A stretch of 63,828 nt of DNA from positions 1-63,828 of the IMG/VR virus record IMGVR_UViG_3300025131_000032. One strand, written 5' to 3'. Source of the DNA: a virus. Below are positions 1,845 through 43,402 of this stretch, piece after piece. The position numbers and the translations under genes are program-made. Each line of letters starts with the position of its first letter. Within the stretch, counting starts at the first letter, position 1. The notes beneath the pieces were generated by a model. It did not search any database. It was not told where the DNA came from and worked only from the letters and a program-made list of their open reading frames with translations.

Positions 1845-4800
1845 ATGGCCCTTAACCCGTATGTTGCCGCGGCTATTCGCAGCCAGCGGTCTCAGCAGCC
1901 CACGATGGACCCAGCACAGCGGCAGTCGATCATGTCGCGCGGGCTCAACATGGCTCTCACGCCGATCGCTGCGGTGGGCAACACCCTCGACCTTGCTAGG
2001 ACTTCAGGTAATGACCTGATTATGTCTGGGTTAACTGGAAAGTGGCATAATCCGTTCGATCAGTGGCTAACTCCATTTTCGCCCGAGAACCGAGTTGAGG
2101 GGCGTGATATCAACCGGCAGTTGGGCTGGGCTGGCCCAGAGGATAATTGGTCCAACTTCATAGGCGGGATCGCAACCGAGATTGTGACCGATCCACTGTC
2201 GTATTTATCGCTCGGCGGGACAAAGGCCCTGTCGCTGATGGGTAAAGCGGCGGAGAAGGCTGGTCTAGGCGCCCGCCACGCCCTCAAGGCGCAAGCAGCT
2301 AAGTCCGCTGGGAAGATCGGTGGCGAGAGCTTAACTGGCCTGCAGAAGCTAATGCCATCGTGGGGTCGAGGCAAGCGGGCGGCCATGGCTAAAACCTCAG
2401 TCCGAGACCTATGGGAGCACGGGGATGATTTCACTCGCAATCAGCTGCGGGAGAGCGTAGACCCTAATGTCTGGGACGCGATGGTGTCACTAGATAAGGG
2501 GGAAGCCAATAAGTTCCTTGACATGCCTCTTGGCCATGGTCCCTCCCTGACAACACCAATCGGCGGCGGATCGGCGCCATTTCTCTCTCAGGCTCAAAAC
2601 CAGGGATTCGCCAGCTTGATGGATGTTCCGGGCCAGCTCACTGGGAAACTGCCGGTGATCGGGCGAATGTCCCGTGGAATGGGCATGCTCTTTGATGACA
2701 GGGCGGGTAATCGCAGGGGAGAGGCAGCGCAGGGTCTTGCTCGAGGGGTGTCTGGGGAAGCGTTAGATCTGACTCCTGGCGCTCGGCATGCGGCTATTAA
2801 GATCCGCGGGCTATCACGGGAGTTTGAGGGTGAACTTCACGACGATGTGCTGAGGGAACTCGGCGCTGGCAATGGCTTAATGAGCCCTGACGGCCACTCA
2901 ATTGGCGACATCGTGGAAACCGTGGATGGTACACAGGCAACAGTGATGGGGTTTGACGTTGACGAAATACGCCTGCATGTAGCCAACCCAGCCAAGGGTA
3001 AGCAGCGGCATATCAACCAGCCCCATTTTACCGCCGGAGACGCCAAGCACGAGCTTAAGCAAGTTCACGAGTACGGGTCTAATGAGGCGGCGATGGGGCT
3101 GCGTAGCGTAACGAGGACAGTTGCCGGCAAGATCGCAAGATTCCGCTTAGAGAACCCAGAACTCGACATCAACAGGGCGTTCAAGGAGTTCCTGCCTAAG
3201 ACGAGTGCCGCCTCTAAGATCAGCCAAAGGGTGCAAGACATAGCTGAGGAAGCGGTCTCTAGCTTCGATAACCTCCAGTCTGATCTTGCCGAAATGGGCG
3301 GCAATATGGGGATGATCGACATAGAACGCCGTGGGTATGCCCCCCGTCGCGCCAACGTGGACGATGCAGGGTTTGAGAAATATGGCCCGCAGTCGAAGCT
3401 CACTAAGGATGTCAGGTTGCCTCGGAACACACCCACCAGTGCGGCCAGTGCGAAGAGCAGAACGGACGAGCTCCGCCACATGCCTGAGTTTGCTATCAAC
3501 CGCATCCTGTTATCTGAGAAGGACGCGCGATCTGCTGATTCGATCATGTCGGTGTATGGCGAGTTCCTTGATGACACATACGGCAAAGGCGAAATCCTTG
3601 AGGAGGCCACGAAAGAGGCTCGGCTCAAGCTCGACAAGTGGGAGCGGGCGGGGCGAGCGGTGGCAGGTGGAGATCCCGCGAAGTTGGCTCAGATCGACGA
3701 AATGATCGCCAAGCGTGGTGAAATCAACATCATCAGCCAAGGGTCTAAAGAGGAGCATGCTGAGGCACTAGCCAAGTGGGTGAAGGGCCGGAAGCGGAAA
3801 GAGCTTTACACGAATCACATGTACGACGACGCGATGGATTACCTCGTAAGTGGTACAGCGATGAAGGGGAACATCAACGCCATCCACCATCAGCTGATGA
3901 ATCGGATGTCTCACGTTGGCGACGACGTGGCCGATGCGCTCACGGTGAACCAGACGCTGATAAATGCCGGGATCAACCCAGACGCCGGGATTCGGTATCA
4001 AGCTAAACTGGCGGTTGGTGAGACGGAATGGAACAAGCTGAATGCCGCTGGGAATGAGGTAGCACTTGAGGAGCTTATTGACACCATGGGATCCCGCAGA
4101 GTGGACCCCAAGGTATCCCACGCGGTTTTGGAGTCGTTCAAGAAGGCCCAGACTCCAGAATGGTTTGACGCTGTTCAGGAGCTGATCGGCGGCATTACCC
4201 AGGTATTTAAGACTGGCGTGACGGCAATCGGTGGCTACCCTGGCTTCCAGTTCCGTAACCTTATTTCAGGGCAACACCTGAATATCTCAGCCAGCGGGCA
4301 GATCCACAACACACGCGATCTCGTGATGTACGGGTGGGAGGTGTGGCAAACTAAGAAGCTGATGGATCGCATGCGGGCGAATAAGCTCACTAACGCAGAC
4401 AAGGAGCTTCTCACCGAGCTTGAGGCCCAGGACTTCCTGCAGGCGAAGAAGACGATGCACGGCGAGCTAGGTGGCCACGACATGCCCTCAGAGGGGCTAC
4501 ATGTTGGGCCGAAGGGGCGTGAGATCTGGAAGTCATCGGCCAGGAAAGAGATTGGGCAGTCGGCTCGCCAAGCCGTGCAGCAGAACCCAATGGCAGCGGG
4601 GATTGTTGACGTTGATACCCTCTACCCCGGTGTGAAGCGAGGCATAAACAAGGCTAGGCAAGGTTGGGCTGCTGCTGCGGAGTTTGGTGGCGGGCTCAAT
4701 AATCGAGTGGAATGGGCTAACCGTGTACCCCTGTACACCTACCTAACAAGGAAAAAGGGTTGGTCGGCGCGAGCGGCTGCTGAGAAGGTAGTCGAGATGC

Positions 4801-12460: not shown

Positions 12461-12853
12461 ATGGCCAACCACTTCACTAACATCCTGATCTGCATCCAAG
12501 ACCCCGAGCAGGAGATTCCAGTCGATCTCCCCAGTGACCTATGCGAGTGGGTTGACCCGATGCCGCCAGTGCTTCGCAATTCGCCGCGCTGGTACGACTG
12601 GGCGGTGGAACACTGGGGCACTAAGTGGGGGACATACAGCCACGAGGTGACTCAGCTAGGCGGTGACTGTTGCCCCTTTGTCATCTCTTTCATCACAGCC
12701 TGGGGGCCGCCACATCCCGAGATGATGCGGCAGATTGTTGCCAAGCTGAAGGCTGAGTTTGCTTTCGATGAGATCTGCCATGTGGGCGTGGATCCGTATG
12801 ACGGCGACATTGAGGTTGTTGGTGAAGTTGCCGCTAAAACAGGAGACGAGTAA
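12461..12853 (+). CDS. YubB/DUF1281-like ferredoxin-fold protein (130 aa)
   Basis: The N-terminus MANHFTNILICI, then WAVEHWGTKWGTYSHEV and ISFITAWGPPHP follow the pattern of the small phage and plasmid family with a YubB ferredoxin-like fold (N-W-G-T-K-W and T-A-W-x-P-P). Function in that family is not established. The ribosome site AGGAGACGAGTA is the first of three copies in this region. The last codons are duplicated beyond the methyltransferase gene at 13944. The stop overlaps the methyltransferase start (TAATG). Confidence 0.7.
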   Translation: MANHFTNILICIQDPEQEIPVDLPSDLCEWVDPMPPVLRNSPRWYDWAVEHWGTKWGTYSHEVTQLGGDCCPFVISFITAWGPPHPEMMRQIVAKLKAEFAFDEICHVGVDPYDGDIEVVGEVAAKTGDE

Positions 12854-12856
12854 TGG
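12815..12856 (+). repeat. 42-bp direct repeat flanking the methyltransferase gene, left copy
   Basis: These 42 bases are identical to 13944-13985. They hold the last codons of the 12461 gene, the ribosome site AGGAGACGAG and the start TAATGG. The two copies bracket a 1,087-base segment that carries only the methyltransferase and the first codons of another frame. Confidence 0.95.
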
Positions 12857-13899
12857 CAAGGATGAACTATCTGGACCTTCTACAGAGAGAGCTTCCTCGA
12901 CCGTTAAAGCGTAGGACACGCAAATACAAGGCACTCGACCTTTTTGCCGGCTGCGGAGGACTTGCTTTAGGTTTTGAGGCCGCTGGGTTTCACACGGTTG
13001 GCTACGAAATGTTGGCCGACGCATGTGACACTTATTCTGCAAATCTGGCGGGCGAATGCCACCAGTTGACCCTGGAGCCAGGGCAAGATCTTACTGACGA
13101 AGCACATGTTGTAATTGGTGGACCGCCTTGCCAGCCGTTTAGTGTTGGTGGATTGCAAAATGGTAAGCGGGACAAGCGGGATGGTTTCCCGGCGTTTCTC
13201 TCGGCAGTTCAGCGATACAATCCCGATTTGGCGATGTTTGAAAACGTCCGTGGGATGCTGTATCGGAACAAGGGGTATCTTGAGTATATTGCCGATGAAC
13301 TGCGTTCTCTTAGCTACATCGTTGAGTGGAAGCTCTTAAAAGCGGTCGAGTTCGGTGTGCCGCAACGGAGAGAGCGTCTTTTCGTGATCGCTCATCGGGG
13401 GCCGTGGAGCTTTCCACAGCCGTCAGCACGCAATAGCGATTACACAGCCGGTGATGCTCTTGATGATTTGGCATTCAAGGTCCACGAAAACACCAAGTTC
13501 TTAACGAAAAGTATGGACGAGTATGTGGCACGATACGAGAAAAAGTCGCTTTGCGTTCGCCCTCGTGACCTTCACTTAGATCAGCCAAGCAGAACCGTTA
13601 CATGTCGCAATCTAAATGGCGCCACTAGTGACATGTTGCGAGTGCGCCTCCCCGATGGACGCCGGAAACGTCTTGTTGTTCGTGAGGGTGCAAGATTACA
13701 GAGCTTCCCTGATTGGTTTCAGTTCAGTGGTGCCGAAGGCAGCCAGTTCAATCAAGTAGGCAATGCAGTGCCACCCCTCTTGGCAAAGGCCGTAGCAAAG
13801 TCTGTGCTGCAATATCTCGAATGTGACAGGCGACTTTCCAAGAATGAAATCGCCAAGCATAACGCAGCGGGTCAGCTATGCCTGGATTCTGGGGAATGA
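12853..13899 (+). CDS. C5 cytosine DNA methyltransferase (restriction-modification type)
   Basis: A 348-residue enzyme with the C5-methyltransferase motifs in order: I DLFAGCGG (29-36), IV GPPCQPFS with catalytic Cys93, VI ENVRG (130-134), VIII QRRERLF (171-177), then a target recognition region, IX REGARLQSFP, and X QVGNAVPPL near residue 300. It transfers a methyl group from S-adenosylmethionine to C5 of cytosine and would protect phage DNA from host restriction. The sequence looks like methyltransferases of type II systems rather than the phage type at 25483. It lies on a segment between two exact 42-bp repeats and looks somewhat more A/T-rich than its neighbours, which suggests recent capture. 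The target sequence cannot be predicted. Confidence 0.93.
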   Translation: MARMNYLDLLQRELPRPLKRRTRKYKALDLFAGCGGLALGFEAAGFHTVGYEMLADACDTYSANLAGECHQLTLEPGQDLTDEAHVVIGGPPCQPFSVGGLQNGKRDKRDGFPAFLSAVQRYNPDLAMFENVRGMLYRNKGYLEYIADELRSLSYIVEWKLLKAVEFGVPQRRERLFVIAHRGPWSFPQPSARNSDYTAGDALDDLAFKVHENTKFLTKSMDEYVARYEKKSLCVRPRDLHLDQPSRTVTCRNLNGATSDMLRVRLPDGRRKRLVVREGARLQSFPDWFQFSGAEGSQFNQVGNAVPPLLAKAVAKSVLQYLECDRRLSKNEIAKHNAAGQLCLDSGE

Positions 13900-25482: not shown

Positions 25483-26613
25483 TTACTTCCGGTCCTGGGG
25501 CAAGTCCAGCTCGCAAATAGACTGCATGAACGCTATGACGAACTGGGCCGCCACCTGCGGGACGATAGCATTTCCCAGTCCACGCAACTTAGCCACTCTG
25601 GCGGGTATCCCTGAAGCCAGCGGGAATGTTCCGGGTTCAACTGGCCGATACTTTCCGTCTGAGCAGTAGAGGTAGTCTGCTTCTGCCCAGAACCCGCTTT
25701 CGCAGCGTCGCACGGCAGGGATCCGCCTGACTGATTCGGCCCCCCCTTGCTCCCATCGGTCGCCCTGGGAGTATTCCGACCGTTGGTCTTCGCAGCGTCT
25801 GACTCCGCCAGTTGCGCCATCGATTGCAGGTCGATCCCGCCGGACCGAGGACGCTTGGCCTTGCTCTCCCGTGTCTCCTCGCCCCCCGTCTTGGCATTGG
25901 GAGTCGCCCACCCCGCTAGTGCCACTGTCTTCCGGCTGGAGTCCGTGTTGCCTGCTTCGTTGTAGATCTTCTCCCCCGCCGCGTTGAACTTCGCTGGTGT
26001 CCCGGCCTGGGGAGTAGGCCACCCCGCCATCGTCGCCACATAGCTCAGAGGCTTCCCCCTGCTGTGCGCATCCCGCTTCGCGTTGAACTCCGGCGTTGCT
26101 GATTCGCTCCGATAGTCCCTCGCCGCTGCGGTAGGCCACCCAGAACAACCGTTGGCGGATGTGCGGCGCCCCGATGCCCGCAGCGCACAAATCGGCTGCC
26201 CCGAAGGCATATCCCAGTGCTTCCAGGTCAGCTTGTACTCCGGCGAGCCACGCCCGTCCAAGTTTGCTCGCAACCTGCTCTCCAAAGACAACTGGAGGGC
26301 GGCACTCGTCAATGAGGCGCCTGAACTCGGGCCAGAGGTGTCGCTCATCTGACTCCCCTTTCCGCTTACCGGCGGCACTGAAGGGCTGGCATGGACAACT
26401 TCCAGTCCAAACGGGAACATCGTCTGGCCAGCCTGCGAGTTGCAAGGCGTAAGGCCATCCCCCGATTCCTGCGAAGAAATGGCATTGGGTGTATTCTTTG
26501 AGTTCATCTGCTGTTACCTCACTAATACTGCGGTTGTCGATCCGGTCTAATTGTAACGGTAGCTGCTCCAACCACGCGCAAGCCTTAGCGTCGTTGTCGT
26601 TGGCGTAGATCAT
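25483..26613 (-). CDS. C5 cytosine DNA methyltransferase, phage type (376 aa)
   Basis: The start is the ATG at 26613, which overlaps the upstream stop (ATGA) behind AGGAGGG and AAGGAGG. Motif I is FFAGIGGW (47-54), motif IV CPCQPFS with catalytic Cys75, motif VI appears as EQV in VVFGEQVASK, motif VIII as RQRLFWV, and motif X as LGNAIVPQVA near the end. The middle (residues 190-290), where target recognition is expected, is unusually rich in G, Q, E, R and D. This low-complexity stretch is exactly where a second long frame overlaps (25533-26507). The enzyme probably protects phage DNA from host restriction. Confidence 0.92.
   Translation of the reverse strand: MIYANDNDAKACAWLEQLPLQLDRIDNRSISEVTADELKEYTQCHFFAGIGGWPYALQLAGWPDDVPVWTGSCPCQPFSAAGKRKGESDERHLWPEFRRLIDECRPPVVFGEQVASKLGRAWLAGVQADLEALGYAFGAADLCAAGIGAPHIRQRLFWVAYRSGEGLSERISNAGVQREAGCAQQGEASELCGDDGGVAYSPGRDTSEVQRGGGEDLQRSRQHGLQPEDSGTSGVGDSQCQDGGRGDTGEQGQASSVRRDRPAIDGATGGVRRCEDQRSEYSQGDRWEQGGAESVRRIPAVRRCESGFWAEADYLYCSDGKYRPVEPGTFPLASGIPARVAKLRGLGNAIVPQVAAQFVIAFMQSICELDLPQDRK
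25533..26507 (-). CDS. Second long frame within the methyltransferase gene (324 aa), GWPTP-repeat protein
   Basis: Same strand, +1 frame, 325 codons without a stop, fully inside the methyltransferase gene. Its ATG has GAGG nine bases upstream. The protein has features of a recurring phage family rather than of chance translation: LTWKHWDMPSGQPICALRAS, repeats of the kind GW-P-T or GW-A-T (SGWPTA, AGWPTPQ, AGWATPN), and the ending LNPEHSRWLQGYPPEWL. I know this ending and the GWPTP repeats from proteins next to phage C5 methyltransferases. I take both frames to be coding. Function is unknown. Confidence 0.6.
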   Translation of the reverse strand: MNSKNTPNAISSQESGDGLTPCNSQAGQTMFPFGLEVVHASPSVPPVSGKGSQMSDTSGPSSGASLTSAALQLSLESRLRANLDGRGSPEYKLTWKHWDMPSGQPICALRASGRRTSANGCSGWPTAAARDYRSESATPEFNAKRDAHSRGKPLSYVATMAGWPTPQAGTPAKFNAAGEKIYNEAGNTDSSRKTVALAGWATPNAKTGGEETRESKAKRPRSGGIDLQSMAQLAESDAAKTNGRNTPRATDGSKGGPNQSGGSLPCDAAKAGSGQKQTTSTAQTESIGQLNPEHSRWLQGYPPEWLSCVDWEMLSSRRWRPSSS

Positions 26614-26840
26614 CCTCCTTGTACCCTCCTCACCTTCTGGTATGCACCCCCACCCATCGCGATCCACCCTGCCCGAGGCGTCACTGACCGAGGCGTGAGG
26701 TGCGTGTCGTCCTCATAAAAAACACGGGCGCCTGCCCGGAAAGCACGTTGCTCTTCGGTCCAGGTCGCCCGTATTGCGTCACGACGTTTGATAATCTCGT
26801 CGTGGTCTAGGTCGTCTTCGATGTCATCATGCCAAGCCAT
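26610..26840 (-). CDS. Small acidic hypothetical protein (76 aa)
   Basis: It overlaps the next start (ATGA) and the previous stop (TAATG), so it is coupled on both sides. The N-terminus is very acidic (WHDDIEDDLDHDEIIKRRD), the C-terminus basic. No family is recognised. Confidence 0.65.
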   Translation of the reverse strand: MAWHDDIEDDLDHDEIIKRRDAIRATWTEEQRAFRAGARVFYEDDTHLTPRSVTPRAGWIAMGGGAYQKVRRVQGG

Positions 26841-35663: not shown

Positions 35664-36767
35664 TCAGGCGTTAGTAGGTTTCAGCACCGCATCCTCGATC
35701 GAGAGCTTGTGCAGGTAGCAGTCTCTCATCCAGAACCCGGCACGGTCGCCGGGCAGCCCCAGGGGGACGGTAGCGGACATGTGCAGTTTTTCGCCGTTGA
35801 CGAACAGGTGGACCACGCCTTGGTAGTGGGTGAGCGTTAGAGGGAACCGAACGAGCCCGTGATAGATGGCGGCTACGTCAAATGCGTAGTCTGTTTCAGG
35901 TGTTGCCAGGTCGTTAGTGTGTACGCCTGACTTCCAGTGTGCAATTCGGAATGACTTCCCATTCATGAAGTTAAACCCAGACTGGATCCATTCTTCGTGT
36001 GTGGCCTCGGTGACGAACGAGAAGAAGGATTGGGGATTGTCCCTGGGTAGGCTGATTTCGGCCTGGAGCGTGAAGTCAGATTGTGTCGGTACGCAAGCCA
36101 GGGCGCCGGTGTAGCCTGACTGGTGTGCGCCGTCGCTTGTGATGGCAATTGGTTTCGGCCACACCTCCCATCGCTTCTCGAGCCAATCGCCGGGGTTGCC
36201 AATGTGGAGTCTTCCGGGTCTGCTGTGCGTCCAGTCGGCGTAGTGGTGGAGGTGGCCAAGTGCCGCCATTGCCTCGATTGCCACACTCCGTTGCCCTGCC
36301 GGCGTGAGATGCAGGCCGTCAGGCTGGCCGTAGAAGGTGCTCAGGCTGTGGTCTGGATTCCTCAGATCGTCGTAAGTCACATTGAGGAATTCGTGATGTG
36401 CAGCCAGGAGTGCGTTTGTCGCTAGGATATCGCTGGCGTAGGTAATGCACGGGAACACGGGCAGGATGACGAAGTCGATACCAACCGGGAGCGAGGCGAT
36501 TGCCCTGGACATCCTCGCGTCTACTTCCGCGGGGGTCTTCCCGAGTGCGAGATCATTAACCCCGCCTCCGATAACAGCTTGATCTCCAGCTGCGAATGTG
36601 GCGGCCTGGATCTGTGCCTGGATCGCCGGCAGTTTAGCGCCGTTCTCGGCGTGATTCTGTGTGGCGTGTGTTTCGACCGAGTCTGGGTGGCTGGACTGGA
36701 GATACCAGCTGGCTGGGGTTGAGTTTTTGCCGAAGACGTTGGAGTCTCCGAAGAAGTGGATTGTCAT
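35664..36767 (-). CDS. SGNH/GDSL hydrolase with C-terminal lectin-like domain (367 aa)
   Basis: Block I is FGDSN (Ser9 nucleophile), block III is GGGVND (67-72, with the Asn of the oxyanion hole), and block V is DGLHL (Asp150, His153). After about residue 190 the sequence changes to a beta-rich domain (FTLQAEISLPRD, GLVRFPLTLTHYQGVVHLFV) like a concanavalin-type or LamG module. The protein is probably an esterase that removes acyl groups from a polysaccharide. There is no signal peptide. It lies among small early-type genes, not beside the fibre genes, which is unusual for a virion enzyme. Confidence 0.8.
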   Translation of the reverse strand: MTIHFFGDSNVFGKNSTPASWYLQSSHPDSVETHATQNHAENGAKLPAIQAQIQAATFAAGDQAVIGGGVNDLALGKTPAEVDARMSRAIASLPVGIDFVILPVFPCITYASDILATNALLAAHHEFLNVTYDDLRNPDHSLSTFYGQPDGLHLTPAGQRSVAIEAMAALGHLHHYADWTHSRPGRLHIGNPGDWLEKRWEVWPKPIAITSDGAHQSGYTGALACVPTQSDFTLQAEISLPRDNPQSFFSFVTEATHEEWIQSGFNFMNGKSFRIAHWKSGVHTNDLATPETDYAFDVAAIYHGLVRFPLTLTHYQGVVHLFVNGEKLHMSATVPLGLPGDRAGFWMRDCYLHKLSIEDAVLKPTNA

Positions 36768-42310: not shown

Positions 42311-43402
42311 TTACTTGATTGGACGCTTATTGGCGATCGTGTTGTTTGTAATAAAGGCGGAAGTGTAACGAATTGTTAGCTCACGCCCCTGACATGTCAT
42401 TTTCCCCTTTACAGGCTCCTCAGTCTTGTAGTGGTGCTTCATTAGGTTCCTGTACAGTGCCTCACATCGCTTGGGGGTAAAGTACCTGCCGCGACCCGTG
42501 TGGTGTTCGCGGCGGATCGGCGCCCTGTTCTCGCGCCGAGCGTGAAGTACCTCGAAAGCGTCAGAGATCCCAGGCCAGCCCATTCCGTGCCGGCGGTAGA
42601 AACCAGCCAGTCGCATCCACGGAGCGAGGTAGTGATCGAGCCTTAGTCGTCTCTTCCGGCTGGCTTGGTCGCGAACAGCCTTGAAACCCAGCGGCGGTTT
42701 GCCTACCCACCATCCACCCGCCCTGGCGGTTTCCCTGGCAGCGGTAGTTCGCTCGGCAATGCACTTACTCTCCCACTGGGCGACGACCATCATGATACTC
42801 AGCACCATCTCACCAACCGGCGAGGCGCCATCGATATTCAGGTTAGCGAAGTGCATCTTGATGCCGCGGCTATCCCAGAGGGCCTTGGTGGTCGTGAAGT
42901 CGTTGAGGTCGCGGAATGCTCTGTCGTGGACAGCGAAGACAACATGGTCGCCCTCTTTGAGCATCGAGTTGAGCACTCGGCCTCGGGGGCGGTTAATGAA
43001 CGGCACCTTCGCAGCGGAGACGCCTTCCTCAACGAATCGCTCACCATCTTTGACGTTGTGGTCCACGCTGATCTTCTGCGCGAACGGGGTGATGGCGGCC
43101 TGCTGAGCGTCGAGCCCTAGTCCAGATTCAACCTGCTTGTTGGTTGAAACCCGCATGTACTGGAAGATCCTGGGGCCGCGTTCCAGGTCTGGGGGCGGCA
43201 GGGCCTCTAGCGTTTTGCGGCGATTACAGCGGGGCGGGTCTGATGTCCGGTGTAGCTGGCCGAACGGGGTTTCCGTTGTAGATTTCCAGCCAACTGTGCA
43301 AGTGCGGCATAGAGGAGAATCTTCTGAGGCGAAGTATTCTTCAGTTGGTGGATAGAAGCGGTTGCACTTTCCTTGGCACTTCCGTAGATTTGCAGTAGCC
43401 AT
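42311..43402 (-). CDS. Serine recombinase with N-terminal zinc ribbon (363 aa)
   Basis: Residues 5-40 have a zinc-ribbon Cys set (CQGKC and CRTC). The resolvase domain starts near residue 79 with FQYMRVSTNKQ (catalytic Ser86), then VESGLGLDAQ, HDRAFRDLNDF, GASPVGEMVLSIMMVVAQ and SKCIAERT, which matches serine recombinases. The C-terminal 140 residues (GWWVGKPPLGFK and following) are a short DNA-binding part, much shorter than in large serine integrases. It could integrate or invert DNA, or resolve multimers. The HTH gene and two promoter-like sites upstream suggest regulated expression. Confidence 0.85.
   Translation of the reverse strand: MATANLRKCQGKCNRFYPPTEEYFASEDSPLCRTCTVGWKSTTETPFGQLHRTSDPPRCNRRKTLEALPPPDLERGPRIFQYMRVSTNKQVESGLGLDAQQAAITPFAQKISVDHNVKDGERFVEEGVSAAKVPFINRPRGRVLNSMLKEGDHVVFAVHDRAFRDLNDFTTTKALWDSRGIKMHFANLNIDGASPVGEMVLSIMMVVAQWESKCIAERTTAARETARAGGWWVGKPPLGFKAVRDQASRKRRLRLDHYLAPWMRLAGFYRRHGMGWPGISDAFEVLHARRENRAPIRREHHTGRGRYFTPKRCEALYRNLMKHHYKTEEPVKGKMTCQGRELTIRYTSAFITNNTIANKRPIK

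Follow-up and report, generated by a model that had tools for sequence, protein, structure and literature searches.

A conserved gene nested in the +1 frame of a phage C5-cytosine methyltransferase gene, and its probable role as the target-recognition part of the enzyme

The window analyzed here, 63,828 nucleotides of the viral record IMGVR_UViG_3300025131_000032, carries on its minus strand a C5-cytosine methyltransferase gene (the outer gene, alpha), and a second long reading frame (the inner gene, beta) is fully nested inside its 394-amino-acid open reading frame. A second methyltransferase gene of the same phage served as an internal control.

25483 to 26667, minus strand: outer gene (alpha), putative catalytic subunit of a C5-cytosine methyltransferase, 394 amino acids from a GTG
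25533 to 26507, minus strand: inner gene (beta), 325 codons including the stop, 324 amino acids, ATG start, +1 register
26517 to 26520, minus strand: GAGG, Shine-Dalgarno-like, 9 nucleotides upstream of the beta ATG
12853 to 13899, plus strand: ordinary single-frame C5 methyltransferase, internal control outside this system (Pfam positions 1 to 322 of 324)

The inner frame, with its own ATG and GAGG (upstream sequence, ...TTAGTGAGGTAACAGCAG-ATG), lies at the coordinates given in the original prediction, and the traits described there for the two products were present as well: GW-P-T, GW-P-T-P, and GW-A-T-P motifs and the C-terminal end LNPEHSRWLQGYPPEWL in beta and a low-complexity center in alpha. 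The true start of alpha is probably the ATG at 26613 (376 amino acids) rather than the GTG at 26667, because homologues begin there in an alignment of starts. Elsewhere in the window, a recombinase-like protein is encoded at 42311 to 43402 on the minus strand (PHROG_95, integrase; PHROG_125, DNA invertase), which suggests a temperate phage, and a GDSL-like lipase/acylhydrolase family protein at 35664 to 36767, also on the minus strand (Pfam PF13472; E value, 6e-11).

The out-of-frame open run in the alpha locus extends for 326 codons, compared with 138 codons for the next longest same-strand run among the other open reading frames of at least 240 amino acids in the 63.8-kb window. Such a run could be a by-product of codon usage and a conserved outer protein, and high-GC DNA does have fewer +1 stops by chance. 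However, when the codons of alpha were shuffled with the outer protein and its codon usage kept, stops arose in nearly all cases (about 5 on average, with zero inner-frame stops in 1 of 5,000 synonymous permutations), and the ordinary methyltransferase of the same phage shows nothing similar, with 12 stops in its +1 frame.

Relatives came from two sources: viral contigs, searched with the outer protein, an outer alignment, and an inner alignment; and bacterial genomes, for which the inner alignment served as the query. Beta lies in the +1 frame of alpha in all 268 loci, fully nested in 245, and none of the 268 has beta without alpha; the 80 loci retrieved by the outer alignment alone, without selection for the inner frame, all carry it. 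A search for relatives with a broken inner frame and an intact methyltransferase, which the original prediction had proposed as its own refutation, left it standing: once near-duplicates were removed (268 to 238 loci), the inner frame was open over its conserved span in 224 of the 238 distinct relatives, with 14 expected from synonymous permutation. Most of the 14 non-open relatives have stops only in about the first 27 inner residues or near the conserved end; the exceptions include one damaged locus (L243 of our collection) and another (L016) in which a stop falls within the motif IX-like segment as aligned. Inner-frame stops cluster at residues −23 to −2 and 308 to 338, with nearly none between, and starts cluster at −9, −3, and +1, a Shine-Dalgarno-like stretch being found in 88 of the 133 relatives with an ATG at −3. 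The +2 frame contains 2637 stops in the relatives, compared with 2387 expected. An 86-amino-acid ATG frame at 25637 to 25897, in the third register, was rejected as a gene on the ground that +2 stops are as many as expected. A single tblastn query with beta hit 176 phage records. Annotation covers both genes in a few of the records, namely, K1ind2 (ORF29/ORF28, "Mte8-like"), PhiXhv-5, and Genki, only the outer gene in others such as epsilon15 and N15, and only the inner gene in PMG1. Beta is a real, ancient gene.

Motifs and regions of the two proteins, all on the minus strand, are as follows.

26458 to 26481, minus strand: alpha motif I (HFFAGIGG, residues 63 to 70), near-invariant in 76 homologues
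26377 to 26394, minus strand: alpha motif IV with the catalytic Cys (PCQPFS, residues 92 to 97), near-invariant in 76 homologues and aligned with M.HhaI
26272 to 26283, minus strand: alpha motif VI (GEQV, residues 129 to 132), invariant in 76 homologues
26131 to 26163, minus strand: alpha motif VIII (HIRQRLFWVAY, residues 169 to 179), R171 and R173 invariant
25684 to 26142, minus strand: alpha passenger region, low-complexity (residues 176 to 328), inner wobble sites free and pLDDT low
25540 to 25587, minus strand: alpha motif X (LRGLGNAIVPQVAAQF, residues 361 to 376), L361, G365, and N366 invariant
26142 to 26306, minus strand: beta N-terminal domain (residues 68 to 122, ...LQLSLESRLRA...YKLTWKHW..PSG..ICALRAS.RRTS), selected in both frames
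25683 to 26141, minus strand: beta GW-x-T-P module region (residues 123 to 275), proposed target-recognition region with selection confined to the inner frame
25590 to 25643, minus strand: beta motif IX-like segment (QLNPEHSRWLQGYPPEWL, residues 289 to 306), selected in both frames

Selection in each frame was assessed in about 22,000 sequence pairs with 40 to 62% outer identity, using fourfold sites at which both members encode the same amino acid. Because the pairs are non-independent, the bootstrap was performed by sequence, and the resulting intervals are narrow. Differences at alpha fourfold sites amount to 0.69 before the overlap and 0.73 after the inner stop; inside, they are 0.63 at outer residues 74 to 110, 0.43 at 111 to 145, and 0.29 at 146 to 178, and in the C-terminal zones they are 0.18 (327 to 352) and 0.40 (353 to 377). 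The strongest constraint, about 0.06 to 0.20, coincides with the motif IX-like segment of beta. Constraint sets in at about outer residue 121 (inner residue ~68) and is released at about outer residue 360 (inner residue ~306), boundaries that delimit the conserved part of beta. A later start of beta at M54 was considered because of this onset; it is disfavored by the GAT that makes that ATG, found at 27% compared with 40% expected, and by the Shine-Dalgarno-bearing starts at −9, −3, and +1. The reciprocal test used the inner wobble position, which is position 1 of the outer codon: it is free (0.58 to 0.63) over inner residues 123 to 275 and held at 0.11 to 0.42 elsewhere.

These profiles divide the overlap into zones. 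Inner residues 1 to 67 are mainly an outer-gene zone, weakly constrained in the inner frame; residues 68 to 122 and 276 to 306 are selected in both frames, residues 123 to 275 in the inner frame only, and residues 307 to 324 in the outer frame only. The locus is a dual-selection overlap, open beyond chance and with constrained outer synonymous sites that share the same boundaries. The constraint comparison in both frames suggested by the original prediction came out partly in its favor, with outer sites held at 0.18 to 0.43 across the conserved inner parts, and its claim of two-frame selection stands for inner residues 68 to 122 and 276 to 306 and fails for the overlap as a whole, the center being selected in the inner frame alone. 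Outer synonymous constraint confined to the inner domain, together with inner codon positions that look coding-like in the center, speaks further against a by-product of codon usage, and we regard that explanation as having a negligible chance of being right. The low-complexity center of alpha is a disordered passenger, since inner wobble sites are free there; and because selection on it is confined to the inner frame, this center is not the recognition domain of the enzyme itself. The original prediction had linked changes in target recognition to the second protein; the second protein is probably the target-recognition part itself.

Residues P92, C93, Q94, and S97 of motif IV are invariant in the 76 homologues, and motif X matches LRIIGNGVVPQQAA of single-chain methylases. 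The protein matches PHROG_363 throughout (E value, 5e-74), and its match to Pfam DNA_methylase (PF00145; E value, 1.4e-17; 64.6 bits against a cut-off of 22) spans residues 81 to 186 only. In the AlphaFold model, a confident C5-methyltransferase fold (match to the M.HhaI fold; E value, 9e-8) flanks a disordered center, with pLDDT values of 33 to 44 at about residues 201 to 310; this center is rich in G, R, S, A, E, D, and Q, with G at 18% and R at 11% of the stretch in relatives. A target-recognition domain or motif IX was not recognizable in alpha by Pfam search or by comparison of the inner and outer profiles. From its motifs (I, IV with PCQ, VI, VIII, and X), alpha appears to be the catalytic part of a PF00145 enzyme. 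It is not a complete single-chain C5 methyltransferase, with target-recognition domain and motif IX in the same chain, because the Pfam alignment covers profile positions 59 to 168 of 324 and then ends, the NCBIfam dcm score is below cut-off, and the center is unselected and disordered. Two relatives (L016, positions 2489 to 4210, and L025, positions 2353 to 4002) have extra outer-frame stretches of well over 100 codons between the inner-end region and motif X, with the outer frame open.

Beta matches PHROG_1008 (E value, 8.3e-25; residues 6 to 308), a phage family labeled "DNA methyltransferase," in agreement with the original prediction, which likened the end of the protein to proteins near phage C5 methyltransferases. 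Modeled alone, it gave a poor structure (pLDDT 59, pTM 0.27), with pLDDT of 80 to 86 over about residues 71 to 110. The number of W-x-T-P modules per inner protein ranges from 0 to 6 among relatives. Between two that are closely related (L014 and L019), DNA identity is about 92 to 98% outside the inner domain, 43 to 70% across it, and recovers at its end, so that the apparent swap unit is the inner domain, as expected for an exchangeable recognition block. A PDB sequence search with beta or its profile returned no relevant solved structure, and a profile comparison with E. coli Dcm gave no match. Pfam, NCBIfam, and PADLOC searches of beta also gave no match, as might be expected if it were a true overlapping gene for an independent protein, such as a regulator or an anti-restriction factor, and no enzyme subunit. 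We consider this unlikely, because the modules and the motif IX-like end share a chain with the catalytic core in other phages (Saroj, Quico, and WillSterrel), recognizable equivalents are lacking from alpha, and beta never occurs apart from alpha in the collected loci.

Single chains carrying motifs I to VIII, LPTPxAxD modules, a motif IX-like segment, and motif X are encoded by Saroj gp68, Quico gp77, and WillSterrel gp71, the last with RLNPAFPEWMMGWPTGWVT as its motif IX-like segment. The inner protein of one relative (L007) matches an in-frame module of WillSterrel gp71 over 44 residues (TPTVQDSTNNAGPSQFRRNSLPLN versus TPTTQDGSNCGGPSQFNRNSLPLN; E value, 2e-9), and its LNPEHSRWLMGYPAEW end matches the WillSterrel motif IX-like segment (E value, 2e-5). 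By hhalign, the end of beta aligns with single-chain phage methylases over their motif IX region (E value, 3.7e-7; 92.9%), and similarity between the outer profile and the single chains extends as far as motif VIII (E value, 8e-19). No match was obtained between the inner and the outer profile. Because the modules and the motif IX-like end are homologous to parts of single chains and the two profiles do not match each other, beta appears to carry what alpha lacks, namely, the modules and a motif IX-like end, the motif IX link resting on phage methylases. We conclude that beta is most likely the target-recognition part of the methyltransferase.

The placement of motif IX in the inner frame, exactly where single chains have it and just before motif X, would also suit a programmed frameshift that fuses the frames, passing from alpha motifs I to VIII into the inner frame and back for motif X. 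Two shifts in opposite directions would be required, though, and the inner frame has its own cluster of Shine-Dalgarno-bearing starts and a cluster of stops at residues 308 to 338 in relatives. Two dual-selected zones would be needless for one shifted product, and the parts are annotated as separate genes in Wile and Upyo; we therefore hold a frameshift to be very improbable.

When phage methylase genes were scanned with the inner profile, +1-frame matches appeared in Mycobacterium, Gordonia, Streptomyces, Paenibacillus, and Escherichia phages and none in E. coli dcm. Methylase genes of actinophages and of Paenibacillus phages carry the beta N-terminal domain in +1, and weak +1 matches (E values, 0.0004 to 0.03) occurred in Vash, Papez, Quico, Tweety, and Saroj. 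PHROG_1008, a ready-made and independent profile, was used as a yardstick for the frame of each part. WillSterrel has profile positions 28 to 151 in +1 and 131 to 323 in the catalytic frame, Saroj has positions 131 to 323 in the catalytic frame, and in Wile (82 to 318) and Genki (29 to 283) the match is in +1. By these matches, the parts keep a constant order along the DNA and differ in frame between lineages. Three layouts can be distinguished: modules and motif IX in +1 with motif X in frame 0 (the window, N15, and Genki); modules, IX, and X all in +1 (Wile, Upyo, and Vash); and modules in frame 0 or split between the two frames, with both IX and X in frame 0 (Saroj, WillSterrel, Quico, and JKSyngboy). 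We lean toward the view that phage C5-methyltransferases evolve by frame swapping, in which frameshifts would move modules, motif IX, and motif X between overlapping subunits and recognition specificity would be exchanged in blocks, each exchange altering both chains at once.

Tweety (L271, positions 1967 to 2368) and Saroj (L276, positions 1967 to 2335) have LPTP modules in both frames of one gene, and the +1 frame of Saroj carries TPRATDGTKGGPNQRG, nearly the TPRATDGSKGGPNQSG of the window. The annotated starts of the second methylase gene in Wile (L270, positions 1955 to 2701) and Upyo (L273, positions 1610 to 2875) appear to be placed too far downstream; the open frame continues well beyond them in the upstream direction, overlaps the first gene, and encodes the conserved N-terminal region of inner-family proteins.

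The most likely product of the locus is a C5-cytosine DNA methyltransferase of the M.EcoHK31I type, made of two subunits that one stretch of DNA encodes in different frames. Alpha would supply the catalytic core, comprising the SAM and catalytic motifs I to VIII plus motif X, and its center would be an unselected linker, translated of necessity because motif X lies beyond it. Beta, initiated at its own GAGG-preceded ATG, would supply the small domain, with the GW-x-T-P target-recognition modules and motif IX. We infer that a single mRNA yields both chains and that they join to form one enzyme, which would methylate a specific site and probably shield phage DNA against restriction by the host.

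Annotation programs usually discard long same-strand overlaps in DNA phages. The layout described here persists in hundreds of phages and prophages, although a mutation in the overlap has to suit two proteins. It is old, common (the 176 phage records found with a single query are joined by many prophages), and measurable in both frames, which makes it a strong natural case of one DNA encoding two proteins. If the two-subunit model is true, many phage "cytosine methyltransferases" in databases would be half enzymes, and the annotated gene alone, its inner frame recoded by codon optimization, would appear falsely inactive in tests.

The principle of a split, overlapping methyltransferase is known, and the frame map, its breadth, and the swapping of domains between frames look new: no paper describing the present phage overlap was found in the open-access literature searched. 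The outer and inner proteins of the window belong to the phage families PHROG_363 and PHROG_1008, both labeled "DNA methyltransferase," of which many records annotate only one member, and a published account of the division of labor in such pairs was not found in the papers searched. Lee, Kam, and Shaw reportedly described in 1995 that the gene for the larger chain of M.EcoHK31I, whose site is YGGCCR, also encodes the smaller chain in an alternative frame. According to PMC3404938, M.EcoHK31I consists of two polypeptides, the larger with motifs I to VIII and X and the smaller with motif IX, and its predicted target-recognition domain is assigned to the larger. Going by that described layout, the window resembles M.EcoHK31I in having motif IX in the smaller, nested chain and differs in that the larger chain is unselected from motif VIII to motif X, the recognition-like modules lying in the smaller. 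M.AquI, according to the same source, is a two-subunit C5-methyltransferase in which motif IX and the catalytic motifs belong to different chains; its smaller subunit holds motifs IX and X and half of the variable region, unlike the window, and a layout like that of M.AquI is found in Wile gp74, Upyo gp53, and Vash gp33.

The translation of the "hidden HNH" insertion of ShiLan in mycobacteriophage methylases is an open question (PMC11855218). An insert resembling it occurs in one relative (L017, positions 2502 to 3911; IMGVR_UViG_3300034103_001027), where an endonuclease VII/HNH-type sequence (PHROG_1035, E value, 4e-27; PHROG_3118, E value, 5e-14) is in frame with the inner protein and splits the outer protein after about residue 143, both frames being open throughout. 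The overlap may bear on how such insertions in related methylases are translated, and an overlapping inner gene could be the answer for ShiLan. We read Tweety, Saroj, and WillSterrel as members of the same methylase family as ShiLan. The actinophage single-chain methylases of that family (PMC9957025, PMC11855218) share with the window a homologous catalytic core and LPTP modules, and several also have beta-like sequence in +1; unlike the window, they carry motifs IX and X and some of the modules in the catalytic frame.
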